A stretch of 64,000 bases of DNA from Nocardioides kongjuensis (GTDB lineage Bacteria; Actinomycetota; Actinomycetes; Propionibacteriales; Nocardioidaceae): the NCBI RefSeq assembly GCF_013409625.1, contig NZ_JACCBF010000001.1:2173001-2237000 (forward strand), read 5' to 3'. Shown in pieces: positions 31,808-54,941 of the stretch. The translations under genes were made by a program, and so were the position numbers. The notes below the pieces were generated by a model. That model was not told the origin of the DNA. It saw only the letters and a program-made list of their open reading frames with translations, and did not search any database. The first letter of the stretch is position 1, and each line of letters opens with the position of its first letter.

Positions 31808-31815
31808 CGGTCGAC

Positions 31816-37987: not shown

Positions 37988-38094
37988 GACCGAAGCGTAC
38001 GCCCGTCCGGCTCGGACCACGCGACGAACGCGGACCCGGAATCTTGGCCGGGCCGACAGCCCGCAGGCCCGCCGCCTTCCCGATGCTGGGCAGC

Positions 38095-39225
38095 ATGCAC
38101 CAGCAGGCACCCGACCGCGCCCACCCGTCGCTCGACGCGATGGTCGCCGACCTCGAGGCGCTGGTGACCTGCGAGTCACCGTCGGAGGACCTGGCGGCCG
38201 TCGCGCGCAGCGCCGAGGTCGTCGCGGAGCTCGGCGCCCGCCTGCTCGGCGTCGCGCCCGAGCGGATCGTGCTCGACGGCTGGACCCACCTGCGCTGGCG
38301 GTTCGGGACCGCACGGCGGGTGCTGGTGCTCGGCCACCACGACACCGTCTGGCCGGTCGGCTCCCTGGAGACGCACCCCTTCGCCGTCACCGACGGCGTG
38401 CTGCGCGGGCCCGGCTGCTTCGACATGAAGGCCGGCGTCGTGATGGCGCTGCACGCGCTCGCCGCGCTCGACGACCGCGACGGCGTCACCCTCCTCGTCA
38501 CCGGCGACGAGGAGATCGGCTCACCGTCCTCGCGCGCGCTGATCGAGCACGAGGCCCGCGGCTGCGCCGGGGCGCTGGTCCTCGAGGCCGCCGGCCCCGG
38601 GGGCGCCCTGAAGACCGAGCGCAAGGGTGTCTCCCGCTACGACGTCCTGGTCACCGGCCGCGCCGCCCACGCCGGCCTCGAGCCCGAGCGCGGCGTCAAC
38701 GCCACCATCGAGGTCGCCCACCAGGTGCACGCGGTGGCCGCGATCGCCGACCCCGAGCGGGGCACGACGGTCACCCCCACGCGCCTCGACGCCGGCACCA
38801 CAATCAACACGGTGCCCGCCGCGGCCGGGTTCGGGGTCGACGTACGGGTGCGCGACGAGGCCGAGCAGGACCGGGTCCACGCGGCGATGCAGGCTCTGCA
38901 GCCGGTGCTACCGGGTGCCGACGTCGAGGTGGTCGGTGGGCCGAACCGGCCACCACTGACACCCACCGCGACCGACGCCCTCTACGCCCGGGCCGCGCGG
39001 CTGGCGGCCGACCTCGGCCTGGCCCGGGTCACCTCGATCTCGGTCGGCGGCGCCTCCGACGGCAACTACACGGCCGGGGTCGGCACGCCGACCCTGGACG
39101 GGCTCGGCGCCGTGGGCGGCGGGGCGCACGCGGACGACGAGCACGTGCTGGTCGCCGAGCTCCCCGGCCGGACCCGGCTGCTCACCGCGCTCGTCGCGGA
39201 CCTCCTGGGCGGGGACGTCGCGTGA
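38095..39225 (+). CDS. M20-family amidohydrolase, likely N-succinyl-L-amino acid desuccinylase
   Basis: About 376 residues from ATG 38095 (alternative ATG 38083). The di-zinc site is visible: His in GHHDTVW, bridging Asp in GCFDMKAG, catalytic Glu pair in GDEEIG, Glu in LVLEAAG and a C-terminal His in GGGAHADDEH. A lid domain is inserted (SRYDVLVTGRAAHAG). Related to carboxypeptidase G2 and ArgE/DapE. Directly upstream of a GNAT gene and an NSAR gene with 4-nt overlaps, so deacylation of an N-succinyl-L-amino acid is the best guess. Confidence 0.82.
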   Translation: MHQQAPDRAHPSLDAMVADLEALVTCESPSEDLAAVARSAEVVAELGARLLGVAPERIVLDGWTHLRWRFGTARRVLVLGHHDTVWPVGSLETHPFAVTDGVLRGPGCFDMKAGVVMALHALAALDDRDGVTLLVTGDEEIGSPSSRALIEHEARGCAGALVLEAAGPGGALKTERKGVSRYDVLVTGRAAHAGLEPERGVNATIEVAHQVHAVAAIADPERGTTVTPTRLDAGTTINTVPAAAGFGVDVRVRDEAEQDRVHAAMQALQPVLPGADVEVVGGPNRPPLTPTATDALYARAARLAADLGLARVTSISVGGASDGNYTAGVGTPTLDGLGAVGGGAHADDEHVLVAELPGRTRLLTALVADLLGGDVA

Positions 39226-40073
39226 GCGCCTCGGCCTGGACCGACGCCGAGAAGGCCGCTGCGGGTGCGGGGATCACGATCCGCACTCTCGACGACATCG
39301 CCGACCTCGAGGAGGTGCGCCGCCTGTACGAGCGGATCTGGCGCACCGGGGCCACCAACCCGCCGGTGACCGCCGACCTGCTCCGGGCGATGGCGAAGGC
39401 GGGCAGCTACGTCAGCGGCGCCTACGACGGCGAGGAGCTCGTCGGCGCCTGCTTCGGCTTCTTCTCCGCCCCCGCGCGCGACGCCCTGCACAGCCACATC
39501 GCCGGCGTGAGCGGGCGGATGGCCGGCCGGCACGTCGGCCTCGCCCTCAAGCTGCACCAGCGCGCCTGGACGCTCGACCAGGGCGCCGGGGCGATCACCT
39601 GGACCTACGACCCGCTGATCCGCCGCAACTCGTGGTTCAACCTGGGCAAGCTGGCGGCCGACGTCACCGAGTACCTGCCCGACTTCTACGGGCCGATGGA
39701 CGACGACATCAACCGCACCGACGCGACCGACAGGGTGCTGGTGCGCTGGACGCTGACCGAGCCGGCCGTCGTCGCGGCGTGCGCCGGGACACCCCGCACC
39801 GTCGAGGTGGCGCGGTTGCGCACGGAGGGGGCGGTCGTCGCGCTGGAGGTCTCCGCCGCGGGCGGTCCGATCGTGCGGCCGGCGTACGGGCGCACGGTGC
39901 TGGTCGGCGTGCCCGTGGACGTCGAGGGCCTGCGCGAGCAGGACCCCGCGCTCGCCGGTGCGTGGCGCGAGGCGCTGCGGGAGGTGCTCGGCGGGCTGCT
40001 CGCGGGCGGCGCACGGGTCAGGGGATTCGACCGATCGGGTTGGTACGTCGTGGAGAGGCAGGAAGTGCAGTGA
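39222..40073 (+). CDS. GNAT-family acyltransferase (COG3375-like), likely amino acid N-succinyltransferase
   Basis: A 283-residue GNAT protein (GTG start 39222, overlapping the M20 stop). ELVGACFGFF and the segment GRHVGLALKLHQRAW correspond to the acetyl-CoA-binding strands and loop, and WTYDPLIRRNSWFNLGKL is a family-specific motif of the COG3375 group. Relatives encoded beside NSAR genes succinylate D-amino acids. Overlaps the racemase gene by 4 nt. The acyl donor is inferred from context. Confidence 0.78.
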   Translation: MSASAWTDAEKAAAGAGITIRTLDDIADLEEVRRLYERIWRTGATNPPVTADLLRAMAKAGSYVSGAYDGEELVGACFGFFSAPARDALHSHIAGVSGRMAGRHVGLALKLHQRAWTLDQGAGAITWTYDPLIRRNSWFNLGKLAADVTEYLPDFYGPMDDDINRTDATDRVLVRWTLTEPAVVAACAGTPRTVEVARLRTEGAVVALEVSAAGGPIVRPAYGRTVLVGVPVDVEGLREQDPALAGAWREALREVLGGLLAGGARVRGFDRSGWYVVERQEVQ

Positions 40074-41173
40074 AGCTGACCGGTGTGGAGATCCGGACCG
40101 TCGAGGTGCCGCTGGTGGCGCCGTTCCGGACGTCCTTCGGGACCGAGACGGTACGCCGGGCGCTGCTCGTCCGTGCCGTCACCGACGACGCCGAGGGCTG
40201 GGGCGAGTGCGGTGCCGGGACCGGGCCGTTCTACTCCTCGGAGTACACCGAGGCCGCTGCGGACGTGCTGGAGCGCTTCCTGGTGCCGATGGTCGCGCAG
40301 GTCGAGGACCTCGACGCGCACCGGGTCGCCCCGGCGCTGGAGCCGGTCCGGGGGCACCGGATGGCGAAGGCCGCGCTGGAGACGGCGGTCCTGGACGCCG
40401 ACCTGCGGGCCCGGGGCGTCTCCTTCGCCCACGCGCTCGGCGCGGTGCGCGACACCGTGCCGTGCGGCGTCTCGGTCGGCATCACCGGGTCGGTCCCGGC
40501 GCTGCTGGACGTGGTCGAGGGCTACCTCGCCGACGGCTACCTGCGGATCAAGCTCAAGATCGAGCCCGGCTGGGACGTCGAGCCGGTCCGCGCCGTGCGC
40601 GAGCGGTTCGGCGACGTGCTGCTGCAGGTCGACGCCAACACGGCGTACCGCCGTGGCGACGCCCGGCACCTCGCACAGCTCGACGCCTTCGACCTGCTGC
40701 TGCTGGAGCAGCCGCTGCCCGAGGACGACCTGCTCGGCCACGCCGAGCTCGCGCGCGCCGTCCGGACGCCGATCTGCCTGGACGAGTCGATCGTCTCGGC
40801 CCGCGCTGCGGCCGACGCGATCACGCTCGGCGCCTGCTCGATCGTCAACATCAAGCCCGGCCGGGTGGGCGGCTACCTGGAGGCGCGCCGGATCCACGAC
40901 GTCGCGTCCGCGCACGGGATCCCGGTCTGGTGCGGCGGCATGCTGGAGACCGGTCTGGGCCGGGCCGCCAACCTGGCGCTGGCGGCCCTCCCCGGCTTCA
41001 CCCTGCCCGGCGACACCTCGGCCTCCGAGCGCTACTACGAGACCGACCTGACCGCGCCGTTCGTGCTGGAGGACGGGCACCTCCGGGTGCCCAGCGGTCC
41101 CGGCCTCGGTGTCGGCCCGCTGCCGGACGTGCTCGACGAGGTCACGGTCTCCCGCACCTGGATCCCTGTCTGA
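40070..41173 (+). CDS. N-succinylamino acid racemase / o-succinylbenzoate synthase family enzyme
   Basis: A 367-residue enolase-superfamily protein. All active-site residues are in place: K161 and K163 (RIKLKIEPG), metal ligands D188 (LQVDAN), E213 (LLEQPL) and D238 (CLDES), and K262 (NIKPGR). Spacing matches actinomycete N-acylamino acid racemases almost exactly. The OSBS reaction of menaquinone synthesis is the alternative, but no men genes are near, while an acyltransferase and a deacylase are in the same operon. That set defines the known D-to-L amino acid conversion route. GTG start with 4-nt overlap. Confidence 0.87.
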   Translation: MKLTGVEIRTVEVPLVAPFRTSFGTETVRRALLVRAVTDDAEGWGECGAGTGPFYSSEYTEAAADVLERFLVPMVAQVEDLDAHRVAPALEPVRGHRMAKAALETAVLDADLRARGVSFAHALGAVRDTVPCGVSVGITGSVPALLDVVEGYLADGYLRIKLKIEPGWDVEPVRAVRERFGDVLLQVDANTAYRRGDARHLAQLDAFDLLLLEQPLPEDDLLGHAELARAVRTPICLDESIVSARAAADAITLGACSIVNIKPGRVGGYLEARRIHDVASAHGIPVWCGGMLETGLGRAANLALAALPGFTLPGDTSASERYYETDLTAPFVLEDGHLRVPSGPGLGVGPLPDVLDEVTVSRTWIPV

Positions 41174-41195
41174 TCGGACGAACATCTGGCACGAT

Positions 41196-41213
41196 TTCGT
41201 CGTGCTCGACGAA
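41196..41213. promoter_or_regulatory. TTCGTC-N6-GACGAA dyad upstream of pucR
   Basis: The arms TTCGTC and GACGAA are separated by GTGCTC, ending 35 bp before the PucR GTG at 41249. A further half-like site GGACGAAC lies at 41177-41184, and an overlapping hairpin GCACGA-TTTCG-TCGTGC at 41189-41205. The same dyad with the same spacing recurs before the importer genes. Confidence 0.6.
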
Positions 41214-41248
41214 CGACGACCCGTCTGCCCGCGGCTAGCGTCGGGCGG

Positions 41249-42919
41249 GTGACGACCGTGGCCGACCTCCCCCGCGCCGGACTCGCTCGCGTCGTCGAGG
41301 AGCTCGGCAGCACGCTGCTCGACGTGGTCTGCGGCGAGGTGCAGCGCCCCGAGGAGATCGGCGGCGTGGTCATCGACGACCCGCTCGACGAGCCGGAGCT
41401 GCCCGAGCACGCACTGGTCCTCGGCGTCGGGCTGCACGAGCCGGCGTCGATCACGGCGGCGCTCGAGCGGCTGGGCGGGCAGGGCGCGCTCGGGCTCGTC
41501 GTCCGGGCGCCGGTGGAGGTGACCGACGAGCTCGCGGCGGCGGCTCGTCGTACGGGCGTCACGGTGCTCGCCCTCGCCCGCGGCGCCGCGTGGACGCACC
41601 TGGCCGGGATGATCCGCGGCCTCACCAGCGACGGTCCGCAGCTCGACCCCGAGCCGCTCGGGCGCACCGGCGCGGGGCTGCGCCAGGTGGTCGGCTACCA
41701 GTCCGGCCTCGACGACCTGTTCGCCGTCGCCAACGCCATCGCCGCCCTCGTCGACGCGCCGGTCACGATCGAGGACCGCAGCTCCCGCCTGCTCGCCTTC
41801 TCCAGCCGCCAGGAGGAGGCCGACACCTGGCGGGTGCAGACGATCCTGCGCCGCCAGGTGCCCGAGGAGTACACGCGCCAGCTCGAGGAGCAGGGCGTCT
41901 TCCAGGAGATCTACCGCTCGACGCGGCCGGTCTGGGTGCCGCCGCTGTCCGACGACGAGCCGTCCGGCAGCGGACGTGCGGCGATCGCCGTCCGCGCTGG
42001 CGACGAGATCCTCGGCACCATCTGGGCAGTCGTCAACGAGCCGATGGACGAGGCCCGCGGGCAGGCGCTGTACGACGCCTCGAAGCTGGTCGCGATGCAC
42101 CTGGTGTGGGCGCGGGCCGACGCCGACGTCGAGCGACGGCTGCGGGCCGACCTGCTCAGCACCGCGCTGGAGAGCGGCCCGCGCACCGCGGAGACGCTGC
42201 GCCGGCTGGGGCTCAAGGACGAGCCGGCCGTGGTCCTCGCGCTGACCGTCGTCGGCGCGGGGACCGAGAGCCCGCTGCCCGCCCAGCTCGCCGTCGAGCG
42301 CAAGCGCGTCGCCGACGCGTTCGCGCTGCACCTGACCGCCGTGCACCCGCGCAGCGCCGCCGGCCTGGTCGGCGACGTCGCCTACGGCATCCTGCCGGTC
42401 GCGCGCGGCCGCAAGGACGGCGAGGAGCGCGCCGCCGAGATCGCCGCCGACTTCCTCTCCCGCGTCGACTCCCGGCTGCGCCCGCTCGTCGGCGTCGGTC
42501 CGCTCGCGGCGGGCAGCGCGTCCCTCAAGCGCTCCCGCACCGGCGCCGACCGCGCCCTGCGGGTCCTCCGCTCACGACCGGGCCAGCAGGTCGCCCGCCT
42601 CGACGACGTCCACCTCGAGGCGCTCCTGCTCGAGCTCGCCGACCGGGTCCCCCGCGGCGACATCCCCAGCGGCGCCGTCGCCCGGATCGTCGCCTACGAC
42701 CAGGAGCACCAGAGCAGCCTGGTCGACACCCTGCGCGCCTGGCTGGACGCCTTCGGCGACGTCGCCATCGCCTCGGCCGCGATGTACGTCCACGCCAACA
42801 CCTTCCGCTACCGGCTGCGCCGCGCCGCCGAGGTCGGCCGGCTCGACCTCACCGACCCGAACGCCCGGCTCGCGGCCATGCTGCAGCTGCGGCTGATGGA
42901 CCTCACCGCTCCGGACTGA
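41249..42919 (+). CDS. PucR/CdaR-type transcriptional regulator
   Basis: A 556-residue regulator with an N-terminal PucR sensor domain (about 15-135), a GAF-like middle region (GLDDLFAVANAIAALVDAPVTI), a degenerate GGDEF-like domain and a C-terminal HTH_30 (MYVHANTFRYRLRRAAEVGRL). The family activates catabolic genes for amino acids, purines and peptides. It follows the racemase gene by 75 bp with its own operator-like dyad. It converges on the fusion peptidase gene, overlapping it by 17 nt. It is the likely regulator of the surrounding peptide-utilisation genes. Confidence 0.9.
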   Translation: MTTVADLPRAGLARVVEELGSTLLDVVCGEVQRPEEIGGVVIDDPLDEPELPEHALVLGVGLHEPASITAALERLGGQGALGLVVRAPVEVTDELAAAARRTGVTVLALARGAAWTHLAGMIRGLTSDGPQLDPEPLGRTGAGLRQVVGYQSGLDDLFAVANAIAALVDAPVTIEDRSSRLLAFSSRQEEADTWRVQTILRRQVPEEYTRQLEEQGVFQEIYRSTRPVWVPPLSDDEPSGSGRAAIAVRAGDEILGTIWAVVNEPMDEARGQALYDASKLVAMHLVWARADADVERRLRADLLSTALESGPRTAETLRRLGLKDEPAVVLALTVVGAGTESPLPAQLAVERKRVADAFALHLTAVHPRSAAGLVGDVAYGILPVARGRKDGEERAAEIAADFLSRVDSRLRPLVGVGPLAAGSASLKRSRTGADRALRVLRSRPGQQVARLDDVHLEALLLELADRVPRGDIPSGAVARIVAYDQEHQSSLVDTLRAWLDAFGDVAIASAAMYVHANTFRYRLRRAAEVGRLDLTDPNARLAAMLQLRLMDLTAPD

Positions 42920-45875
42920 GCCCCAGCTGCTGGACCAGGAACCCCAGCCACTCGACGTCCTGCGCAAGCACCACCTCCGGGCTGGTCGCGGCTCCGTGAC
43001 CGGCGTCCTCGAAGACGTGCAGCAGGATCGGGGCATCGCCCTGCTGGGCGGCCTGCAGGCGCGCGACGAACTTGCGGGCGTGCCACGGTCGGCAGCGCGG
43101 GTCGGTGGCACCGGCCTGCACGTAGACGGCCGGGAAGGTGCCCGGGTGGACCAGCTCGTACGGCGAGCGTCCGATCATCCGGCGTACGTCCACCGGGTCG
43201 TCGGGATCGCCCCACGCCTTGCGGATCACGAAGTCGAGGTACGGGTCCCGCATGCCGGCGACGAGGTCGAGCAGGGGCGCGCGCGGGAGGACGGCCCGCC
43301 ACAGGTCGGGGCGGGTCGTGACGGCGACGCCGCACATCAGGCCGCCGTCCGAGCCGCCGGTGAGCGCGAGCCGGTCGGGCGTCGTACGACCGCTGGCGAC
43401 CAGGTGCTCGGCGACGGCGACCAGGTCGTCGTCGCGGACGTGCTTGGTCTCGCGGTGCGCGGCGAGGTACCAGTCCCGGCCGAGCTCGCCACCACCACGC
43501 AGGTAGGCCTGGACGACGGTGCCGCCGGCGGCGACGAAGGCCGCCAGGTCGGGCTGGTACGACGGCAGGGTCGGCACGTTCGCGGCGCCGTACGCCGTGA
43601 TCAGTGTCGGCGCCGCGCCGTTGCCCGCCGCCGCGGACCGGATGACGTGGAAGGGCACGAGCGTCCCGTCGGCAGCGGGCGTGGCGCCCTCCTCGACGAC
43701 CGCGTCCAGCGTGACGGCCGGCGCCAGCAGGGTCTCGACCGCAGCGGTGACGGACCGGTGCCGGTGCACGCTCCAGGAGGTGGTGGGCGTGGAGAAGGCG
43801 AACAGGAAGTCGGGCGCGGGCGCACCGACGGCGAGGCCGGTGAGCGCGAAGAAGGGCGCAGCGAGGGCGCCGCGGCCGGGCAGCGGCACCTCCCCCAGCA
43901 CACGCCCGGCGACGTCCAGGACCCGCACCCGCGCGAATGTCCGGTCCAGCTCGGCGAGGTAGAGGTGCTCTCCCACGGGCGTGATCGAGCGCAGCACGGT
44001 CGGTCCCTCGGGGACGAGCTCCTCCCAGGTGGAGGCGTCGTCGGCGCTCAGCGAGTCGAGCGGGATCGCGACCACCCTGCCGCGCGCCGCGCCGACGTCG
44101 GTGACCGCGACGTACCTGTCCCCGACCACGTGCCCGGCCACGGTGCCGGTGCAGGCGGTGACGAACGGCCGCCACCCCGACCCCGGCGAGGCCAGGTCCC
44201 GCACGGCCACGGGGACCGGGCTGCCGACCCGGTGCGCGGCCACCAGCCAGCGCCCGTCCGGCGACGGCTGCACCAGCGTGTACTCGCGCGATCCCTCGGG
44301 CACCGGGACCGGCTCGACCACGGTCGCGCCGGTGGTGAGCGAGTGGTGGAAGGTCGCCTGCACGAACTCCTCCGGCGTACCGGTCAGCGCGAGGAACCAG
44401 AAGCCTGCGCTGTCGGCCGCCCAGGAGACGCCGCCGGTCCAGGCGCTGTGCAGCACCTGCGGCGGCGCGGGCAGCCGTTGTCCGGAGGCGACGTCGAGGA
44501 GCCGGATCGTGTTGTGCTCGCTGCCGTCGGTGCACACGCCGATCGCCAGCACCCGGCCGTCGGGCGAGGGCGCCAGCCACGAGAGCACCGCACCCTCGTC
44601 GAGGACGACGACCGGATCACCCGCACCGTAGGGCTCCTCGGCCACCACGACCGTCCCCGCGACCGGCCGGAACCAGCGCCCCGCGGCGTGCCGGGGCAGC
44701 ACGGGACGCGCCCCGGCGTCGTGCTCCTCGACCAGCGTGCGCAGGGCGACGCGGTCCTGCGCGCCGAGGATCGAGCCGGTCGCGACCTCGGCCTGCCGTC
44801 GCTGCCAGGCGTGGACCTCGTCGTCCTCGGCCTCCAGCCAGCGGTACGGGTCGGGCACGCAGACGCCCGCCTGGGTGGCGACGACGTCGACGGTCCGGCT
44901 CGGCGGGTACGGCGCCGCGAGCTCGCGCTCCAGCCGCTCGAAGGCGCCGGGCACGCGGTGCACCACGCCGAGGTCGAGGACCAGGTCGAACGCCTCGTCG
45001 TCCAGGACCGGGCCGGGGACGCCCTCCTCCAGTGCGACCGCCCAGTCGAACGGCCGCGTCGAGCGGTCGGTGATCCGGACGGCGGGGCCGGAGGTGAAGG
45101 TGGTGCCGACGACCACGAGGTCGTCCCCCAGTGCGTCGCCGAGCAGGCCCCCCAGGGTCGGGACGCCGTCGTACGGCGTGCGCTGGACGTGCCCGTCGTG
45201 CGCGCTCACCAGCACCCGCTCCTCGCGCTCCAGCACCCAGCGCACGGTGTCGGCCATGAACCGGTCGCGGTCGTGCCCGTCGGCGAACGCGAGGACCGAC
45301 GCGGCCAGCCGCTCGGCGACCGGGTCCCCCACCGCCGTGCCGCGTGCAGCGAGATCCCGCAGGTCGGCCCGCAGCCGCTCGCGCTCGGCCTCGGACAGTC
45401 CGGCCCAGCGCAGCGCCGCCTCGACCCGGCCCCCGAGGTCGCTGCGGCGCAGGAGGTCCGGATCCCCCGCAGCTGCGGGGATCCGGGACATCAGGGCCCG
45501 CACCGCGGGCCCGGGAGAGGTCGAGCCACCGGACACGTCCATGCCGTGGACGCGCACACCACCGTGCGAGCGCAACCAGGAGAGCTGCCGGTGCACGGCA
45601 GCGCAGTGCCCGAACCCGTAGGAGATCCCGGCTGCCGCCGACTCCACCGAGCCGGGACCGCCGGCCACCCACGCGTCGAGCTCGAGCCCTTCGGCGAAGC
45701 CGGACTCCAGCACCAGTGCGGTGAACCCGAGGTCCTCCACGAGCACCCGGAACAGGTCGTCCCGGAGCTCGTGGAGCTCGGTGATGTTGTGGCCGGCCTC
45801 GCCGAGTGCCACCACGCGGGCGTCACCGATCGTGGTGCGCAGCGCGGCGAGGTCGGCCACGGACATCTCCTTCAT
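42903..45875 (-). CDS. Erythromycin-esterase-like domain fused to prolyl oligopeptidase
   Basis: A 990-residue two-enzyme chain. Residues 1 to about 315 form an erythromycin esterase-like domain, with ALGEAGHN giving E26 and H29, LVLESGFAEG, and SAHDGHVQR. From Y323 (YPPSRTVDVVA and DPYRWLE) a prolyl oligopeptidase follows: a beta-propeller, then the S9 catalytic domain with S842 in GGSDGG, D925 in GATDPRC and H960 in DAGHGAA. The frame is uninterrupted at the junction. The ATG at 45875 shares one base with the binding-protein stop (TGATG), so translation is coupled. No signal peptide, so it would act on imported peptides in the cytoplasm. Confidence 0.88.
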   Translation of the reverse strand: MKEMSVADLAALRTTIGDARVVALGEAGHNITELHELRDDLFRVLVEDLGFTALVLESGFAEGLELDAWVAGGPGSVESAAAGISYGFGHCAAVHRQLSWLRSHGGVRVHGMDVSGGSTSPGPAVRALMSRIPAAAGDPDLLRRSDLGGRVEAALRWAGLSEAERERLRADLRDLAARGTAVGDPVAERLAASVLAFADGHDRDRFMADTVRWVLEREERVLVSAHDGHVQRTPYDGVPTLGGLLGDALGDDLVVVGTTFTSGPAVRITDRSTRPFDWAVALEEGVPGPVLDDEAFDLVLDLGVVHRVPGAFERLERELAAPYPPSRTVDVVATQAGVCVPDPYRWLEAEDDEVHAWQRRQAEVATGSILGAQDRVALRTLVEEHDAGARPVLPRHAAGRWFRPVAGTVVVAEEPYGAGDPVVVLDEGAVLSWLAPSPDGRVLAIGVCTDGSEHNTIRLLDVASGQRLPAPPQVLHSAWTGGVSWAADSAGFWFLALTGTPEEFVQATFHHSLTTGATVVEPVPVPEGSREYTLVQPSPDGRWLVAAHRVGSPVPVAVRDLASPGSGWRPFVTACTGTVAGHVVGDRYVAVTDVGAARGRVVAIPLDSLSADDASTWEELVPEGPTVLRSITPVGEHLYLAELDRTFARVRVLDVAGRVLGEVPLPGRGALAAPFFALTGLAVGAPAPDFLFAFSTPTTSWSVHRHRSVTAAVETLLAPAVTLDAVVEEGATPAADGTLVPFHVIRSAAAGNGAAPTLITAYGAANVPTLPSYQPDLAAFVAAGGTVVQAYLRGGGELGRDWYLAAHRETKHVRDDDLVAVAEHLVASGRTTPDRLALTGGSDGGLMCGVAVTTRPDLWRAVLPRAPLLDLVAGMRDPYLDFVIRKAWGDPDDPVDVRRMIGRSPYELVHPGTFPAVYVQAGATDPRCRPWHARKFVARLQAAQQGDAPILLHVFEDAGHGAATSPEVVLAQDVEWLGFLVQQLGLSPER

Positions 45876-47737: not shown

Positions 47738-47798
47738 GTCTTCTCCGCAGTGTGGGTGGGCTGTTGCGACGAGGTTGCACCAGCCGCGAGGAGCCCGG

Positions 47799-47816
47799 TT
47801 CGTCGGTGTCGACGAT
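47799..47816. promoter_or_regulatory. TTCGTC-N6-GACGAT dyad upstream of binding-protein gene
   Basis: The arms TTCGTC and GACGAT are separated by GGTGTC, with one mismatch from the perfect dyad. The 11-mer CGGTTCGTCGG (47796-47806) is identical to the sequence at 51856-51866 upstream of the ATPase gene. It lies 62 bp before the ATG at 47737. Confidence 0.55.
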
Positions 47817-47872
47817 TCGTCGCCGATGCGTCGGTCCGGCTCGACAGGGCCGCGGTGGAGGCAGGATCCGGC

Positions 47873-48760
47873 TCAGTCGGCCTTGCGTCCGACCGCGTCG
47901 CGCAGCGCGTCGGCGAGCAGGTTGAGGGCGAGCACGGTGAGCACGATGAACCCGCCGACGGGGTAGATCAGCCACCAGTAGTCGGCCGAGATGTAGGTGA
48001 CACCGCTGGCGAGCTGGCTGCCCCAGTCGGTCGTCGGGTAGCTCAGCCCGAAGCCGAGGAAGCCGAGCGCCGCGACCACGAGCACCGCGTCGGCCACCTG
48101 GAAGGTGACGTTGACGATGATGACGCCCATCGCGTTGGGGATCAGGTGGGTGAAGATGATCCGCCGGCGCGTGGCGCCCATCACCCGGGCTGCGAGGACG
48201 TACTCCCGCACCCGCAGGGTCAGCACCTCGCCGCGGACGAGTCGGGCGGAGATCAGCCACGAGAAGGCGCCGATCACCAGCGCGAGGCTCCACGCGTTCG
48301 CGTGGAAGCGGGCGGAGAGGATGAGGACGAAGAACAGGAAGGGCACCGACAGGAGCACGTCGACCATCCGCATCAAGAAGCCGTCGACGATCCCGCCGGC
48401 GAGGCCGGCCACGGCGCCGTACACGGTGCCGAAGGTGGTGGCGAAGACCGCGGCCAGCAGGCCGATCTGCAACGAGACCTGGCCGCCGGCCATCAGCCGG
48501 CCGAGGACGTCGAAGCCGTTGGTGTCGGTGCCGAGCGGGTGCCCGGGGCCGGGCGGCAGCGCGGCGTCGAGCAGGTTGACGTCGGTCTGGTTGGTCTTCC
48601 AGAACAGCGGCCCGAGGTAGCAGAAGGCGACGACCAGCAGGAGCAGCGCGCCACCGGCCAGGCCGAGCGGGTGGTGCCGCAGCCGGCGTACGGCGGCCCG
48701 GACGCCGGCCGGCGCGGGGGGCAGGTGCACGGACTCGGGGGTGGCGGGGACGGCGGTCAT
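47873..48760 (-). CDS. Peptide ABC transporter permease, DppC-like
   Basis: A 295-residue permease: N-terminal helix LGLAGGALLLLVVAFCYLGPLF, HPLGTDTNGFDVLGRLMAG, and EAA loop AARVMGATRRRIIFTHLIPNA. Six predicted helices. ATGA overlap with the DppB-like gene upstream. Forms the membrane channel with it. Confidence 0.93.
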   Translation of the reverse strand: MTAVPATPESVHLPPAPAGVRAAVRRLRHHPLGLAGGALLLLVVAFCYLGPLFWKTNQTDVNLLDAALPPGPGHPLGTDTNGFDVLGRLMAGGQVSLQIGLLAAVFATTFGTVYGAVAGLAGGIVDGFLMRMVDVLLSVPFLFFVLILSARFHANAWSLALVIGAFSWLISARLVRGEVLTLRVREYVLAARVMGATRRRIIFTHLIPNAMGVIIVNVTFQVADAVLVVAALGFLGFGLSYPTTDWGSQLASGVTYISADYWWLIYPVGGFIVLTVLALNLLADALRDAVGRKAD

Positions 48761-49707
48761 GAGGCGAGCTCGATCCTGCGGTCGGCCATGGCGACCGCGA
48801 TGTCGGCGATGAAGTTGCCCGCGACGGTCAGCACACCGCCAATGAGGGTGTAGGCGAGGAGCACCGGGTAGTCCTCGCGTTGCAGGCTGTTGAGGAACAG
48901 CAGCCCCAGACCGGAGTAGTTGAACAGCGACTCGACGATCAGGTTGCCGGCCAGGAGCAGCGGGATCATCGTGCCGACCAGGGTGATCAGCGGCAGGCAG
49001 GCGTTGCGCAGCAGGTGCCGGGTGAGCACCAGCCTCTCGGGCAGGCCCTTGGCGCGTGCGACCCGGATGTAGTCCTGGCCGAGCTGGTCGAGTGCCGAGG
49101 AGCGCTGGTACTGGCTGAAGATCGCGATGCTCGTGACCGCGATGGTGACGACAGGCAGCGCCATCGATCGCGGGTCGGTGAACACCACCCACGGCGAGTG
49201 CGACTGCGAGGCCTCCGCCGGGAACAGGTCCAGCTGCTGGCTGAACACCGCGATCAGGACCAGGCCGAGCAGGAACGCCGGCGTCGCGTAGAGGACGTAG
49301 GCGAGGCCGGTGGCGACCCGGTCGACGACACTGTTGCGCTTGACGGCTTGCAGGATGCCCAGCGGGACGGCGATGAGCAGCGCCAGCACCAGCCCGGCGA
49401 GGGACAGCATCGCGCTGCGACCGGCGTTCTGCTGGAGCAGCGTGCCGACGTCCTGGTTGAGCTTGTAGGAGCGGCCCAGGTCGCCGTGCAGCAGCTGGCC
49501 GAGGTAGCTGAGGTACTGCACCACGACCGGGCGGTCGAAGCCGTGCTCGTGGTTGAAGTCGGCCACCGCCTGCGGGCTGGCGCGCTGGCCGAGCACCACC
49601 CGGCCGGGGCTGTCGGAGACCAGGTGCAGCAGGAAGAAGACGACGGCCGAGATGCCGAGGAGGACCACGGCGGAGACGGCGAGCCGCTTGGCGACGTACC
49701 AGGCCAT
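48757..49707 (-). CDS. Peptide ABC transporter permease, DppB-like
   Basis: A 316-residue permease: first helix LAVSAVVLLGISAVVFFLLHL, periplasmic segment GFDRPVVVQYLSYLGQLLHGDLG, and EAA loop VARAKGLPERLVLTRHLLRNA. It follows the ATPase stop by 1 nt. Shorter than the DppB-like protein of the other importer, and clearly a separate transporter. Confidence 0.93.
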   Translation of the reverse strand: MAWYVAKRLAVSAVVLLGISAVVFFLLHLVSDSPGRVVLGQRASPQAVADFNHEHGFDRPVVVQYLSYLGQLLHGDLGRSYKLNQDVGTLLQQNAGRSAMLSLAGLVLALLIAVPLGILQAVKRNSVVDRVATGLAYVLYATPAFLLGLVLIAVFSQQLDLFPAEASQSHSPWVVFTDPRSMALPVVTIAVTSIAIFSQYQRSSALDQLGQDYIRVARAKGLPERLVLTRHLLRNACLPLITLVGTMIPLLLAGNLIVESLFNYSGLGLLFLNSLQREDYPVLLAYTLIGGVLTVAGNFIADIAVAMADRRIELAS

Positions 49708-49708
49708 G

Positions 49709-51793
49709 TCAGGACGCTCCGTTCGCGTTGGCGTGGTGGCAGGAGACGCTGTGCGTCGGCGTGAGCTGCAGCGGCAGCGGCTCGACCTCGGCGCAGACCT
49801 CGGTGGCGAGCGGGCAGCGGGTCCGGAACCGGCAGCCGCTGGGCGGGTCGAGCGGGCTGGGCAGCTCGCCGCGGACCCGCTCGGCACGCGGGGGCTGCGC
49901 TGTCGGCGCCGTCGGCGACGCCTCGGGTACGGCGGCCAGCAGGCCCGCCGTGTAGGGGTGGGCCGGTGCGGCGTACACCTCCTCGGCGGTGCCGCTCTCG
50001 ACGAGCTTGCCGAGGTACATCACGCCGACCCGGTCGGCGAGGTAGCGGACGACGGCGAGGTCGTGGGAGATGACGACGCTGCTCAGCCCGCGCTCGCGCT
50101 GGATGCGGCGCATCAGGTTGAGCACCTGCGAGCGGATCGAGACGTCGAGCGCGCTGACGGGCTCGTCGGCGACGAGCACCGTCGGGTCGAGGGCGAGCGC
50201 CCGGGCCAGGGCGACACGCTGGCGCTGGCCGCCGGAGAGCTCGTGCGGGAACCGCTCGAGGACGGTGGCGGGCAGGCCGACGTCGGCGAGCAGGTCGCGG
50301 GCGGTGGCGGTACGTCCGGCGCGCGTGCCGATGCCCTGGATGGCGAGCGGCTCGCGCAGCACGGCGCCGATCCGCATCCGCGGGTCGAGGGCGGCGCTGG
50401 AATCCTGGAACATCATCTGCAGGCGGGCCCGGTGGCTGCCGAGCTCGCGGGGCTTCATGGTGGTGACCGAGCGGCCCTCGAAGACGACCTCCCCGGAGGT
50501 GGGCTGGTCGAGGGCGACGAGCATCCGGCCGAGCGAGGACTTGCCGCAGCCCGACTCCCCCACCAGGCCGAAGGTCTCGCCGGCGGCGACCTCGAAGCTG
50601 ACGCCGGAGACCGCCTTCACCGTGCGCCTGGGACCGAACCAGCTGCCGTGGCCGGCGGGGTACTCCCGGTGCAGGTCGACGACGTCGAGCCTCGGGCCGG
50701 TCGCGACATCCGCCGTGGGGGCCGACGGCTCTGCGACGCGGACCGCGGTGTGCTGCACCGGGCCGGACGCCGGGTTCCAGCAGGCGAAGGCGTGGCTGCC
50801 CTCGGTCGTGACGGGCGGCTGCACGGTGCGGCACTCGTCGGTCGCTGCCGCGCACCGGGGCGCGAAGGCGCACCCGACCTGGGTGGCCGAGAGGTCCGGG
50901 GGGGTGCCGCCGATGCTGTAGAGCTCCTCGCCACGGTCGTGGGTGAGCGACGGGATCGAGGCCAGCAACGCCTGCGTGTACCGGTGCCGGGTGCGCTCGA
51001 AGAGGTCGGTGGTCGGCCCGGTCTCGGCCAGCCGGCCGGCGTACATGACACCGACGCGGTCGGCGTGGCGGGCGATCACGCCCATGTCGTGGGTGACCAG
51101 GATCATCGCCATCCCGAGCCGGGCACGCAGGTCGTCGAGCAGCTCGAGGATCTCGGCCTGGATGGTGACGTCGAGCGCGGTGGTGGGCTCGTCGGCGATG
51201 ACGACCTTCGGCTCGCAGACCAGCGCCATCGCGATCATCACCCGCTGCCGCATGCCGCCGGAGAGCTGGTGCGGGTGGTCGTCCATCCGCTCGCCGGGGC
51301 GCGGGATGCCGACCAGGGCGAGCATCTCCTCGGCCCGCTGGCGGGCGGCCCGCTTCGAGAGGCCGAGGTGCAGGCGCGCGGGCTCGGCGACCTGGTCGCC
51401 GATCCGCCGGGTCGGGTTGAGCGCGGTGAGCGAGTCCTGGAAGACCATGGCGATGTCGTTGCCGCGGATCGCCCGGTACCTCGCGGGCTCCAGGCCGACC
51501 AGCTCGGTGCCGCCGAAGTCGATCGAGCCCTGCGTGACGCGGCCTCCGGACGGCAGCATCCCCATGATCGCCAGGCCGGTCATCGACTTGCCGGAGCCGG
51601 TCTCACCGACGATGCCGAGGGTCTCGCCGCGGTGCAGGTCGAGGCTGACGCCGGTGACCGGACGCACGACGCGCTCGCCGCGGCGGATCTTCACCGACAG
51701 GTCGCGGACGCTCAGCACCCGGTCGGTCGCCGGTGCGGGATCGGTGATCACTGCGGTGCTCTCCGTCGTGAGGTCTGCGGTGCGCTCTGCCAC
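49709..51793 (-). CDS. Dual-domain peptide ABC transporter ATPase (DppD-DppF fusion)
   Basis: A 694-residue protein carrying both ATPase subunits in one chain. NBD1 has GETGSGKS, FQDSLTALNP, LSGGMRQR and VIADEP, ending in a cysteine-containing oligo_HPY region (CAFAPRCAAATDEC). NBD2 has GESGCGKS, FQDSSAALDP, LSGGQRQR and LVADEP, and ends with its own cysteine pair. Start is GTG 51793. A perfect dyad lies 63 bp upstream. Such fusions are common in actinobacterial importers. Confidence 0.93.
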   Translation of the reverse strand: MAERTADLTTESTAVITDPAPATDRVLSVRDLSVKIRRGERVVRPVTGVSLDLHRGETLGIVGETGSGKSMTGLAIMGMLPSGGRVTQGSIDFGGTELVGLEPARYRAIRGNDIAMVFQDSLTALNPTRRIGDQVAEPARLHLGLSKRAARQRAEEMLALVGIPRPGERMDDHPHQLSGGMRQRVMIAMALVCEPKVVIADEPTTALDVTIQAEILELLDDLRARLGMAMILVTHDMGVIARHADRVGVMYAGRLAETGPTTDLFERTRHRYTQALLASIPSLTHDRGEELYSIGGTPPDLSATQVGCAFAPRCAAATDECRTVQPPVTTEGSHAFACWNPASGPVQHTAVRVAEPSAPTADVATGPRLDVVDLHREYPAGHGSWFGPRRTVKAVSGVSFEVAAGETFGLVGESGCGKSSLGRMLVALDQPTSGEVVFEGRSVTTMKPRELGSHRARLQMMFQDSSAALDPRMRIGAVLREPLAIQGIGTRAGRTATARDLLADVGLPATVLERFPHELSGGQRQRVALARALALDPTVLVADEPVSALDVSIRSQVLNLMRRIQRERGLSSVVISHDLAVVRYLADRVGVMYLGKLVESGTAEEVYAAPAHPYTAGLLAAVPEASPTAPTAQPPRAERVRGELPSPLDPPSGCRFRTRCPLATEVCAEVEPLPLQLTPTHSVSCHHANANGAS

Positions 51794-51855
51794 GCAACGA
51801 TGGTGCGACGCGGGTCATGTCCGGTGTTGGTGCGGGCCGCCCGAGCTGGGGAGGG

Positions 51856-51879
51856 CGGTTCGTCGGCGGGGACGAACCG
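51856..51879. promoter_or_regulatory. Extended TTCGTC-N6-GACGAA dyad upstream of ABC ATPase
   Basis: CGGTTCGTC-GGCGGG-GACGAACCG has perfect 9-bp arms around 6 nt, the best of the three sites. It lies in the 88-bp gap between the dipeptidase stop (51882) and the ATPase GTG (51793). It could alternatively be read as a terminator for the dipeptidase, but its match to the other two sites favours an operator. Confidence 0.6.
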
Positions 51880-51881
51880 GC

Positions 51882-52937
51882 TCATGCGGATCGACCGGCC
51901 GGTCCGGGACGGCCCAGCTCGGCGACGTACAGGCGTCGTACGTTCGCACCGAGGACGGCGGTGACGTCGGGCTCCGCCCAGCCGCGGCGCAGCAGCGCCT
52001 CGGTGACGAGCGGCAGGCCCGCGGGGCCTTCGAGGCCGGGCAGGTACGCGTCGGCGGGCACGCCCTCGACGAGGGTGACCTCGCAGCACGGCGGCGTCGT
52101 GTCGGCCAGGACCTCCTTGACGAAGTCCGGGCCGAGCCCGACGTGCTCGACACCGGCGACGGACACGACGTGCTCGAGGTGGTCGACGAGGCGGTCGATC
52201 GAGAAGTCGGTGGCGTGGAGGTAGGGCGCGAAGAAGTTCACGCACACGACGCCTCCCCCGGCGGCGATCCCGCGGATCTGCGCGTCGGTCAGGTTGCGGT
52301 GGTGGTCGAGGGGGGCACGCGCCGAGGAGTGGGTGGCGATCACCGGACGGGTCGCCAGCTCGAGGACGTGCTCGACGCCGGCGGCCCCGAGGTGGCTGAC
52401 GTCGAGGAGCATCCCGATCCGCTCCATCTCCTGCAGGGCCGCGACACCGGCCCTCGTCAGCCGGCCGCCCGTGCCGTCCTCACCGCTGCCGTCGGCGAGC
52501 GCGGTCCGGCCGAAGTGGGCCAGCGACGCGACGCGGACCCCCAGCCGGAACAGGGTCTCCAGCAGCTCGACGTCGTCGCCGATGCCCGGTGCGCTCTCGA
52601 GGGCGAGGACCAGTGCGGTCCGGCCCCGGGCCAGGGCGTCGTCGATGTCCGCTCCGTCGCGGCACAGCGCGACCTCGTCGGCGTTGCCCTCGGCCAGCCG
52701 GTGCGCGGCCTCGATCATCCGCAGCGTGCGGCGCAGCGCCCCCTCGGGCCGGTACGGGTCCTCGATGAACACCGGCAGTGTCTGCAGGTCGACGCCGCCG
52801 GCGCGCAGCTGCGGCAGCCACTGCTCGCGGAAGAAGGACGCCCACCGCTCGACCGGGCGGGCGACGACCGCGCAGAGCAGGTCGTTGTGGGTGTCGGCGA
52901 CGACGGCCTCGTCGTGGAGCCTGCGGGCGTCGGTCAT
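51882..52937 (-). CDS. M19 membrane-dipeptidase-type metallopeptidase
   Basis: A 351-residue renal-dipeptidase family protein. Zinc ligands are seen as His and Asp in DTHNDL, Glu in LALESAPG, His in DVSHLG, His in IATHSSARA and Asp in GLGPDFV. The family cleaves dipeptides and tolerates a D-amino acid at the C-terminal position. No signal peptide, so it is cytoplasmic here. ATGA overlap with the S12 gene; upstream of the importer genes. Confidence 0.92.
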   Translation of the reverse strand: MTDARRLHDEAVVADTHNDLLCAVVARPVERWASFFREQWLPQLRAGGVDLQTLPVFIEDPYRPEGALRRTLRMIEAAHRLAEGNADEVALCRDGADIDDALARGRTALVLALESAPGIGDDVELLETLFRLGVRVASLAHFGRTALADGSGEDGTGGRLTRAGVAALQEMERIGMLLDVSHLGAAGVEHVLELATRPVIATHSSARAPLDHHRNLTDAQIRGIAAGGGVVCVNFFAPYLHATDFSIDRLVDHLEHVVSVAGVEHVGLGPDFVKEVLADTTPPCCEVTLVEGVPADAYLPGLEGPAGLPLVTEALLRRGWAEPDVTAVLGANVRRLYVAELGRPGPAGRSA

Positions 52938-54253
52938 CGGGTCCTCCGGTCGGCTCGTCCGGTGTGCAGGTACGCCGCCCGCCCCGTGCCGTCGTCACCG
53001 AGGAAGGCCACCGGCTGGTGCACGCCGCCCTCGGGCTCGAGCGGCCACAGCGTCTCACCGCGCCAGGCGACCAGCTCGGTGCGGTAGGGCGGCTCGTCGA
53101 TCTCGGCCAGCACGCCGAGCGGTGTGCGGTCCAGCCACAGGCGCCCCTGCCCGTCCTGGCTGACCACCGTCTGCCCGACCTCGGAGGCGTAGGTGCCGGC
53201 GTACCGGGTCGGGTCGGGGGTGGAGATCGTCGCGGGCGGCTCGGGGGCGGGCGGCAGGTCGACGCCGGCGAGCTCGCGGAGCACGTGGCCGGTCACCGCG
53301 CGGTGGAGCAGCTTGGCGGGTCCGCCGTTGGTGAGCACCGCCACCGCGAGGTCGTGCTCGGGCAGCAGTCGCAGGAAGGCGGACTGGCCGATGGTGTTGC
53401 CGTCGTGGCCGACGATCGGCGTCGGGGCGAGCCGGAAGAGCTCCCAGCCCAGTCCCCACGCCTCGCCCTGGCCGAGGTCGGGCAGGGCGACCTGGGGCGT
53501 CCGCATGCCCGCCAGCGCAGGGTTCTCGAGGTGGTGGCGGGCGAACGCGACCAGGTCGCGGGCACGCATCGCGAGCATCGAGCCGGCCGGGGCGTTGGAG
53601 CGCGCCAACGCCCACACGTCGGTCGGCCGGCCGTCGACGTGGCCGACCGCGGTGCGGTGCAGCACCGCCTCGTAGGGGTCGGTCGCGGCGCTCGTCATGC
53701 CGAGCGGGTCGAGCAGGTGGGCCCGCAGGCAGGTGTCGTACGGCGCTGCGCGGACCACCTCGACCAGCCGGCCCAGGACGCAGAACCCGGCGTTGTTGTA
53801 GGACCACATCTCGCCGGGCGGGAACAGCTGGGGGACCTCGGAGAGCAGGTCGACGTACTTCTCCACGCAGTCGTCGCCCTTGCCGGTGTCGGTGAACACG
53901 TCGCCCTCGAAGCCGGCGGTGTGGGTGAGCAGCTGGCGGACGGTGAGGGTCGCGGCGGCCGACTCGTCCCCGAGGCGCAGCCCGGGCAGCCACGTGCGCA
54001 CGGGGCGATCGAGGTCGACCAGGCCCTCGTCGACGAGCTGCTGGACGAGGGTCGCGGTGAGCACCTTGGTGATCGAGCCGACCTGGAAGATCGCGTCCGT
54101 CGTGGCGGTCACGCCGGTCGCGGCGCTCAGGGTGCCGGCGGCGGCGTCGACGACCTCGTCGCCGTGGGCGACCGCCACCGCGGCCGCGGGCACCCCCGTC
54201 CCTTCGAGCAGCTCCGGAAGGCGTCGCTCCAGCCAGTCGTCGATCCCGCGCAT
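52934..54253 (-). CDS. S12-family serine hydrolase (beta-lactamase/D-peptidase fold)
   Basis: A 439-residue serine hydrolase: S60-x-x-K63 in VGSITKV, Y152-x-N154 in SYNNAG and a third-box HxG in IVGHDGN. A C-terminal beta-domain of about 110 residues follows. The family includes D-aminopeptidase, alkaline D-peptidase, DD-carboxypeptidases and esterases. Lack of a signal peptide and the neighbourhood of an M19 dipeptidase and amino acid racemase favour a cytoplasmic D-stereospecific peptidase. This is inference; an esterase role remains possible. Confidence 0.85.
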   Translation of the reverse strand: MRGIDDWLERRLPELLEGTGVPAAAVAVAHGDEVVDAAAGTLSAATGVTATTDAIFQVGSITKVLTATLVQQLVDEGLVDLDRPVRTWLPGLRLGDESAAATLTVRQLLTHTAGFEGDVFTDTGKGDDCVEKYVDLLSEVPQLFPPGEMWSYNNAGFCVLGRLVEVVRAAPYDTCLRAHLLDPLGMTSAATDPYEAVLHRTAVGHVDGRPTDVWALARSNAPAGSMLAMRARDLVAFARHHLENPALAGMRTPQVALPDLGQGEAWGLGWELFRLAPTPIVGHDGNTIGQSAFLRLLPEHDLAVAVLTNGGPAKLLHRAVTGHVLRELAGVDLPPAPEPPATISTPDPTRYAGTYASEVGQTVVSQDGQGRLWLDRTPLGVLAEIDEPPYRTELVAWRGETLWPLEPEGGVHQPVAFLGDDGTGRAAYLHTGRADRRTR

Positions 54254-54305
54254 GCGCGCAGCCTAGGCGGGCCGGACGGCCGGACCTTCGTCGATCAGGA
54301 CCGGC

Positions 54306-54941
54306 TCACCGGGCCGGTTTGGTCGCCTCCACCAACCCGATCTGGATCACGTCGATCGCCGCAGCGGCGGAGGCGAGGAGCCGCTTGGTCAGCCGGGCGT
54401 CGACCTTGCCCTCGGCGGCGGCCCGCTGCACCTCGCGGGTCATCCCGCGCGTGGTGCCGACCAGCGCCGAGGCGACGGCCCAGGAGCGCAGGTCGTCGCC
54501 GAGCTCGTCGACCAGGAGCTCGCGCAGGGCGCAGACGGCACGGTCCGCCTCGAGCCGCTCGCGCGCCTGCAGGCTCGGGCTGTCCTGCACGATCCGGGCG
54601 ATCCGGGACAGGCTGGCGAGCACCGGGGAGGCGGGGTCGGCGAGCACGCCGCGGGGCTGCAGGACGTGGTCCCGGAAGGCGCTGACGACGCGCTGGCCCG
54701 CCGGGCGGTCGCGCACGGCGGCCAGCAGGTGCTCGTTGAAGGCCGCCATCCCGTCGTAGATCAGGTCCTCCTTGGCCGGGAAGTAGTTGAACACCGTGGC
54801 GGTGGAGACGTCGGCGGCGACGGCGATGTCGGCGACCGGGACCTGCTCGAACCCGCGCTCGGCGAACAGCTCGATCGCGGCCTCGGTGATCCGCTGTCGC
54901 GTCTCCTGCTTCTTGCGCTCACGCAGTCCCGGCTCGGCCAT
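54306..54941 (-). CDS. TetR family transcriptional regulator
   Basis: A 211-residue TetR protein with HTH ITEAAIELFAERGFEQ and ADVSTATVFNYFPAKEDLI; the C-terminal helical domain is variable. Divergent from an MFS exporter, with 83 bp between the starts, the standard repressor-efflux pair. It likely binds an imperfect dyad in that region and is released by an exported drug-like ligand. Confidence 0.92.
   Translation of the reverse strand: MAEPGLRERKKQETRQRITEAAIELFAERGFEQVPVADIAVAADVSTATVFNYFPAKEDLIYDGMAAFNEHLLAAVRDRPAGQRVVSAFRDHVLQPRGVLADPASPVLASLSRIARIVQDSPSLQARERLEADRAVCALRELLVDELGDDLRSWAVASALVGTTRGMTREVQRAAAEGKVDARLTKRLLASAAAAIDVIQIGLVEATKPAR

Follow-up and report, generated by a model that had tools for sequence, protein, structure and literature searches.

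Soil, bacterial walls and bacterial peptides all contain D-amino acids, and to our knowledge little is known of how D-residue peptides are recycled by bacteria. N-Succinylamino acid racemase (NSAR) has become known mainly as a biocatalyst with promiscuous activity. What, then, is the role of an NSAR gene that shares one block with genes for a peptide importer, several hydrolases and a PucR-family regulator? The question is raised by Nocardioides kongjuensis, where this block occupies positions 38095-54253 of the 64,000-nucleotide stretch analyzed here (the window). We consider it likely that the block serves the catabolism of short peptides containing D-amino acids, as a module under PucR control.

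The block comprises 11 genes with intact catalytic motifs, arranged in two convergent operons (Table 1). The order on the plus strand is M20-GNAT-NSAR-PucR, with a gap of 75 bp between the NSAR gene and pucR. On the minus strand, S12, M19, a fused OppD-OppF, OppB, OppC, a solute-binding protein (SBP) and a fusion of an erythromycin-esterase-like (Ere-like) domain with a prolyl oligopeptidase (POP) follow each other in the direction of transcription. Several neighboring genes overlap by a few bases, such as GNAT and NSAR (at 40070-40073) and the POP fusion, whose start codon (ATG at 45875) overlaps the stop codon of SBP; the gaps of the minus-strand operon measure 88 bp (M19/OppD-OppF) and 135 bp (OppC/SBP). 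A first-pass annotation of this DNA had described a single locus for import, cleavage and stereo-inversion of D-amino acid peptides. All the families that it named were found, at the coordinates it gave, by Pfam, PDB and fold searches. The single locus holds as a conserved unit, the gene order being kept in relatives, but a single operon is ruled out by the two convergent ones.

Recurrence of the racemase with an importer and hydrolases

Two samples of NSAR loci were examined with family hidden Markov models (HMMs) run on stretches of up to ~21 kb. Because the models were built from NSAR-locus proteins, controls may be under-called, and whole-genome Pfam densities served as an independent check on the HMM-based control counts. 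The first sample held 80 loci from named genomes, the best 80 of 581 confirmed candidates, which lean to close relatives; 22 of the 80 stretches measure less than 20 kb, and in the window itself S12 falls outside the 20-kb stretch (L118). The second held 25 of the 27 NSAR copies from 25 of 148 genomes of the organism's own family, including the two loci of the window genome and omitting two copies near contig starts (G002 and G097). GNAT was found in 76 of the 80 loci, M20 in 60, PucR and S12 in 55 each, OppBC together with OppDF in 49, SBP in 47 and S9 in 44. The corresponding counts for the 25 own-family loci were 24 for GNAT, 22 for PucR, 20 each for M20, S12 and OppBC with OppDF, and 17 for S9. 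By comparison, 55 evenly spaced 20-kb controls from the same family held no S12, OppBC, S9, PucR or GNAT, one M19, one M20 and 14 OppDF-like ATPases. This gene-neighborhood analysis, which the first-pass annotation had proposed, placed an Opp importer and S12 within ~10 kb of NSAR in 42/80 and 18/25 loci versus 0/55 controls. Whole-genome Pfam counts in the window genome were 5 for S12, 11 for SBP_bac_5, 15 for S9 and 6 for M19, and 1.7 to 5.2% of 20-kb stretches are expected to hold each family (S12, 1.7%; SBP_bac_5, 3.8%). Because the controls lacked S12, S9, OppBC, PucR and GNAT and the genome-wide densities are low, the co-occurrence with NSAR is not due to chance.

The block as such recurs in other organisms. 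It is complete gene for gene, from M20 to S12, in Streptomyces albipurpureus (L008) and Microbacterium hydrocarbonoxydans (L024). Streptosporangium carneum (L007) has the same arrangement minus M19, relatives of which lie on other contigs of its genome. In genome G453, one locus (L191) also has the window's arrangement, its stretch being covered to OppD. The block proteins are 45 to 87% identical to those of these relatives. In a rapidly built tree of 119 rows, the NSARs of the five block copies formed one group (Shimodaira-Hasegawa-like approximate likelihood ratio test, 86; the program stars values of at least 95). The five organisms span at least four families, and only 1 of the 25 same-family NSAR loci, the window's own, has the window's form. 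Since the five copies group together though the families differ, and since the form is so rare within the family, lateral movement as a block is suggested. The parts form one conserved unit, which is probably co-regulated.

The commonest layout is found in 47 of the 119 rows, with S9 and S12 immediately upstream of M20 or GNAT on the strand of NSAR. OppBC lies within the stretch in 42 of these 47, mostly upstream in the order SBP-OppB-OppC-OppD-OppF. Identity to the window is low for the permeases (~27 to 38%) and the ATPases (~40 to 52%) while it is 67 to 81% for NSAR. Therefore, different importers and hydrolases accompany the same inversion trio. A fusion of an S9 peptidase with an S12 hydrolase (~1100 residues) belongs to a family present in 39 NSAR loci (including L010 and L064), some of which have S9 alone and S12 as a separate gene. 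A class-level search of 393 genomes, 118 of which had NSAR, gave matches to the fusion in 34 genomes, with 26 copies near full length. Twenty-five of these 26 lay within 7.5 kb of NSAR, and the contig of the 26th carries M20 and ends at GNAT, before NSAR; partial matches, to the S9 or S12 part alone, lay within 13 kb of NSAR in 9 of 14 cases. The S9-S12 fusion can serve as a marker of NSAR loci.

Some genomes have more than one NSAR locus: four, in three layouts, were found in G453 and two in the window genome. The second locus of the latter (L087/L088; C1:2870850-2889101) holds a DPPIV-type S9, PucR, GNAT, SBP, PepX (S15), M19, an OCD-family enzyme, a flavin adenine dinucleotide (FAD) enzyme, a protein with no Pfam match, S12, POP, another M19 and NSAR; neither M20 nor permeases were among its genes. 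Identities to the window are 48% for PucR, 46% for GNAT, 52% for SBP, 32% and 81% for the two M19 proteins and 73% for NSAR. The best NCBIfam model for the FAD enzyme was D-amino acid dehydrogenase, at 182 bits, below the cut-off of 383. D-Proline-like residues are out of reach of a primary-amine acyltransferase, and a FAD-dependent D-amino acid oxidase or dehydrogenase together with an OCD-family imine reductase could be a candidate second route for their D-to-L inversion.

Other arrangements were observed as well. Plasmids carry NSAR loci as well. On one linear Streptomyces plasmid, M20, GNAT and NSAR are accompanied by serine hydrolases and an ABC importer of the peptide type, and transposase genes lie both next to these genes and between them. 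On a Lysinibacillus fusiformis plasmid (Bacillota; L229), a gene annotated as a peptide MFS transporter adjoins M20-GNAT-NSAR. In a clade of Amycolatopsis, Streptomyces and Kutzneria (L022, L026, L034 and others), a D-aminoacylase-type amidohydrolase precedes M20 or GNAT (that of L022 matches PRK09061 at 640 bits), and in several of its loci a Beta-lactamase2 protein follows NSAR. In Deinococcus radiodurans, GNAT is one gene away from NSAR.

Enzymes and transporter of the block

The racemase aligned with the solved Amycolatopsis NSAR (1sja) over residues 1 to 365 of 367. Both catalytic lysines and the metal ligands (KxK, D, E, D and K) are retained in this alignment, in agreement with the first-pass statement that every catalytic residue is kept. 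GNAT was marginal by Pfam (19.8 bits versus a cut-off of 22); with its structure model (predicted local distance difference test score, 93), the best Foldseek matches were GNAT acetyltransferases (E = 2e-8), and the assignment is confirmed through the modeled fold. M20 lies at a median of 2.0 kb upstream of NSAR across NSAR loci. The make-up M20-GNAT-NSAR is that of the known irreversible D-to-L pathway, and a three-step inversion would be expected from what is known of these families. The NSAR pathway of Geobacillus kaustophilus for D-to-L conversion is mentioned in a passage of PMC8762209, which cites Sakai et al. 2006 (Biochemistry 45:4455).

The importer gene set is complete by Pfam (SBP_bac_5, two BPD_transp_1 and two ABC_tran/oligo_HPY). 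Like other Opp/Dpp ABC importers, it has one SBP, two permeases and two ATPase domains; unlike the usual ones, it has OppD fused to OppF and is linked to D-amino acid inversion genes. The fusion fits the dipeptide ABC ATPase model PRK11308 (628 bits; cut-off, 408). The importer had initially been called a dipeptide importer. The ATPases fit dipeptide/oligopeptide models, but dipeptide specificity is not established, since the SBP has weak PDB relatives only (best E, 3.7e-11).

The predicted prolyl oligopeptidase fusion was confirmed by Pfam as an Ere-like domain followed by S9_N and S9. Its translation contains the serine motif GGSDGG as well as GEAGH and AHDGHV. In L186 and L191, Ere-like and POP are two overlapping genes, so the window protein is a fusion. 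S12 carries the catalytic set SxxK, YxN and HxG as SITK, YNN and HDG, and M19 carries the metal-ligand motifs HND, E, H and H. The solved sequence closest to M19, 3id7, is one that we take to be an enzyme acting on L,D-dipeptides. No signal peptide was seen by eye (no predictor was applied) in Ere-like/POP, S12 or M19, which look cytoplasmic.

Predicted PucR operators

A palindrome with the core GTC-N6-GAC recurs before pucR, S12, OppDF and SBP (Table 1), and this pattern supports one PucR regulon. Given the position of its gene and the sites in the pucR promoter, PucR would be the protein that binds the palindrome. The first-pass proposal of one PucR regulator agrees with the presence of pucR in the block and with the shared predicted palindrome before genes of both operons; the site before M20 is weak. 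Two matrices were used. The first drew on M20-upstream sites from four genomes, whose M20 promoters are related to one another, and was scanned over the window. The second was made from 23 pucR-upstream sites of other loci, with control intergenic DNA as the null. With the pucR-derived matrix, operator 2 before pucR scored 18.7, the maximum of the window; the runner-up (18.0) lies outside the block. After redundant or over-long promoters were dropped, 53 of 67 NSAR-pucR gaps were kept. TNGTC-N6-GACNA was present in 10 of the 53 (300 control draws: mean, 0.61; maximum, 3), and the core in 18 (control mean, 7.7; maximum, 15). Seven loci had two core sites, 31 to 32 bp apart in six of them, including the window (31 bp). 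In the GC-rich DNA studied here the palindrome is frequent, with 872 control positions scoring at least 10 on one strand of 1.1 Mb.

Sites were also scored in relatives, where the loci share ancestry, so that combined p-values overstate. In Microbacterium, p was 0.001 before S12, 0.003 before OppDF and 0.051 before M20. The values were 0.011 (OppDF), 0.021 (SBP) and 0.028 (S12) in Streptomyces, 0.025 (M20), 0.031 (SBP), 0.047 (S12) and 0.089 (OppDF) in Streptosporangium, 0.092 before M20 of G453, and 0.011 (GNAT/SBP) and 0.045 (NSAR) in the second locus of the window genome. Two OppB/OppDF gaps, in which a promoter is not expected, gave p values of 0.69 and 0.955. The DNA before SBP was examined in 17 loci of the commonest layout, 13 from the own family and four from another (f19). 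Another S12 precedes SBP in 12 of the 13 own-family loci (the 13th being L222), and a site stood before that S12 in 12/12 testable loci (p = 0.002 to 0.032). The own-family SBP gaps had a site in 0 of 8 testable cases among the 13 (p = 0.16 to 0.85), and the f19 loci had one before SBP in 4/4 (p = 0.002 to 0.012). Taken together, 16 of the 17 relatives had a site before S12 or SBP.

Alternative readings and known systems

In the proposed module, the peptide would enter through the Opp-type ABC transporter with the help of the SBP lipoprotein, and Ere-like/POP, S12 and M19 would cleave it to free amino acids in the cytoplasm. GNAT would N-succinylate the released D-amino acids, NSAR would racemize the products, and M20 would free the L-amino acids, making the inversion one-way. 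PucR would sense a pathway metabolite and act at the GTC-N6-GAC palindromes before pucR, S12, OppDF and SBP. We infer D-residue peptides as the substrate, the order of cleavage and the sign of PucR action from context, the D-residue step because of the company that the genes keep.

Several results weigh against this module. No ABC importer with S12 was found in the covered stretch of 38/80 and 7/25 NSAR loci, PucR was absent from that of 25/80 and 3/25, and M19 was present in only 12/80 and 2/25 loci. Fifteen further class-level loci were picked by hand (four from G453; mostly more distant NSARs, several less than 65% identical); among them, GNAT was found in 14, M20 and PucR in 8 each, S12 in 6, OppBC in 5, an ABC importer with S12 in 4 and M19 in none. 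Thus, further from this NSAR branch, the core of the trio is retained and the importer and hydrolases become less frequent. NSAR has no annotated Opp importer within 14 kb in Deinococcus radiodurans (SBP and GNAT are annotated) or within 9 kb in Priestia megaterium, the gene tables being incomplete in both cases. Operator scores were weak before M20 of the window (p = 0.09), SBP of G453 (0.594) and of Microbacterium (0.165), M20 of Streptomyces (0.184) and S12/DAO of the second locus (0.364). Finally, IS11 and 6ksu ("alpha/beta hydrolase") precede alkaline D-peptidase among the PDB relatives of the window S12. Because alkaline D-peptidase ranks third, S12 may have an esterase or other serine-hydrolase role. 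It ranks first for the second-locus S12 and sixth for the S12 part of the S9-S12 fusion, where IS11 is first; the relatives across these proteins include D-peptidases, esterases and a cyclase.

An alternative, which we regard as unlikely, is general peptide scavenging, in which the importer and hydrolases would handle normal L-peptides, which might be rich in proline, and the NSAR trio would only clear D-amino acids that turn up now and then. The S9 and S15 peptidases of both loci are of proline-type families, the SBP has no special relative, and distant NSARs often have GNAT in an importer-free stretch. However, with 11 SBP_bac_5 proteins in the genome a generic importer need not adjoin NSAR, the S9-S12 fusion hardly occurs outside NSAR loci, and a FAD enzyme whose nearest models are D-amino acid dehydrogenases is present in the second locus.

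Recycling of peptidoglycan stem peptides is very unlikely. It would resemble dppABCDE-ykfABCD of Bacillus subtilis, which provides an importer, an M55 D-aminopeptidase, a peptidase and an L-Ala-D/L-Glu epimerase for murein peptides. As in that system, an importer, peptidases and an enolase-superfamily epimerase or racemase stand in one locus, and the window enzyme has its fold and catalytic lysines in common with L-Ala-D/L-Glu epimerases and o-succinylbenzoate synthases (OSBS) of the MLE subgroup. Unlike those enzymes, it sits by sequence with the Amycolatopsis NSAR, and epimerase models gave 68 to 71 bits against cut-offs of 343 to 500. Pfam gave no match to LD-carboxypeptidase, M55 D-aminopeptidase or NlpC/P60 in any of the 11 genes.

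Salvage of imported N-acyl or N-carbamoyl amino acids, racemized by NSAR and freed by M20 or a D-acylase, is highly improbable. A D-aminoacylase-type amidohydrolase lies near NSAR in 14/80 loci, and part of PMC7431475 lists N-carbamoyl, N-acetyl and N-formyl amino acids among NSAR substrates. Against this, the GNAT-family acyltransferase in 76/80 loci means that the acyl group is probably added inside the cell, and the importers identified are peptide-type ones.

That the racemase is the menaquinone OSBS, as the automatic annotation menC has it and as TIGR01928 (303 bits; cut-off, 201) might indicate, is hardly credible, since the same genome encodes a separate MenC (426 bits; cut-off, 288), flanked by a menE-like gene and menD; a racemase acting only as OSBS was the outcome that the first-pass annotation had named as refuting it. 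GNAT-adjacent NSAR genes are labeled menC or o-succinylbenzoate synthase in 5/5 plasmid records (NZ_CP031502, NZ_CP018877, NZ_CP108083, NZ_CP130332 and NZ_CP012477), probably because the family model TIGR01928 covers NSAR. This label hides the genomic context of NSAR in public records.

We return to the proposed module for D-residue peptides. GNAT, NSAR and M20 stand together in one operon as they reportedly do in Geobacillus kaustophilus, where they are said to serve one-way D-to-L conversion. Unlike that pathway, with which it was compared by gene families, the window adds an Opp importer, S9, S12 and M19 hydrolases, and PucR with shared predicted operators. The D-to-L trio (Sakai 2006), the importer family and the regulator family are already known. 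No description of the trio coupled to peptide import, cleavage and a regulator was found in the open-access literature, most subscription journals being outside that scope. For genome context in this enzyme family, a passage of PMC2781113 cites Glasner et al. 2006 (J Mol Biol), a study that may mention some of the neighbors. The likely natural partners of NSAR can now be named (importer, S9-S12 and M19 hydrolases, and PucR), and a predicted operator and the organisms concerned are listed, which makes the physiological role of NSAR directly testable; being widespread and testable, the module is of more interest than a single locus.

A bolder extension, to which we give little credence at present, is that NSAR modules are parallel, substrate-tuned, laterally moving cassettes for nonribosomal or cyclic D-residue (depsi)peptides, including antibiotics. 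The Ere-like esterase would open the lactone, POP or S9-S12 would cut the chain and NSAR would make the D-residues usable, nutrition doubling as resistance.

Table 1. Genes and predicted operators of the block (window coordinates)
Feature	Position	Strand	Evidence
Predicted weak operator before M20, TTGGCCGGGCCGACAG	38044..38059		Similar 16-mers before M20 in three relatives; p 0.09 with pucR-derived matrix
M20 family amidohydrolase, predicted N-succinyl-L-amino acid hydrolase	38095..39225	+	Pfam M20 and M20_dimer; best PDB relative carboxypeptidase G2
GNAT-fold acyltransferase, predicted succinyl-CoA:D-amino acid N-succinyltransferase	39222..40073	+	Fold; top Foldseek matches GNAT acetyltransferases
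NSAR, enolase superfamily	40070..41173	+	PDB 1sja, E 2.9e-174
Predicted PucR operator 1 before pucR, CTGTCTGATCGGACGA	41166..41181		Equals training-site score, matrix from M20-upstream sites
Predicted PucR operator 2 before pucR, TCGTCGTGCTCGACGA	41197..41212		p 0.001 versus control intergenic DNA
PucR-family transcriptional regulator	41249..42919	+	Pfam HTH_30, 6.8e-18; C-terminal domain present
Ere-like domain + prolyl oligopeptidase (S9_N + S9) fusion	42903..45875	-	Pfam; 990 residues
Peptide-type solute-binding lipoprotein (SBP_bac_5)	45875..47737	-	Pfam, 8e-49; lipobox LLVSGC by eye
Predicted PucR operator before SBP, TCGTCGGTGTCGACGA	47800..47815		p 0.003
OppC/DppC permease	47873..48760	-	Pfam BPD_transp_1, OppC_N; start per codon model
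OppB/DppB permease	48757..49707	-	Pfam BPD_transp_1; start per codon model
Fused OppD-OppF ATPase	49709..51793	-	Two ABC_tran and two oligo_HPY stretches
Predicted PucR operator before OppDF, TCGTCGGCGGGGACGA	51860..51875		p 0.003
M19 dipeptidase	51882..52937	-	Pfam, 2.8e-79; closest solved sequence 3id7
S12 (beta-lactamase fold) serine hydrolase, possible D-peptidase	52934..54253	-	Pfam, 6.2e-64
Predicted PucR operator, 35 bp before S12 ATG, TCGTCGATCAGGACCG	54288..54303		p 0.003

Further candidate members were examined, and none was retained. TetR (54306-54941) and MFS genes adjoin S12 here, and neither is beside S12 in L187, L188 or L206; L206 has two short partial TetR matches (79 and 41 residues), not next to S12. 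A defense system was rejected, as PADLOC gave zero matches for the four proteins tested. Membership of a second Opp importer of the window (28.0-33.3 kb) in the system is not supported, its best matches to NSAR-locus importers being 24 to 50% identical. This different Opp-type ABC importer, with its own SBP, lies at 28025-33255 on the minus strand, near FAD-binding, TIM-barrel, M24 and GntR genes.

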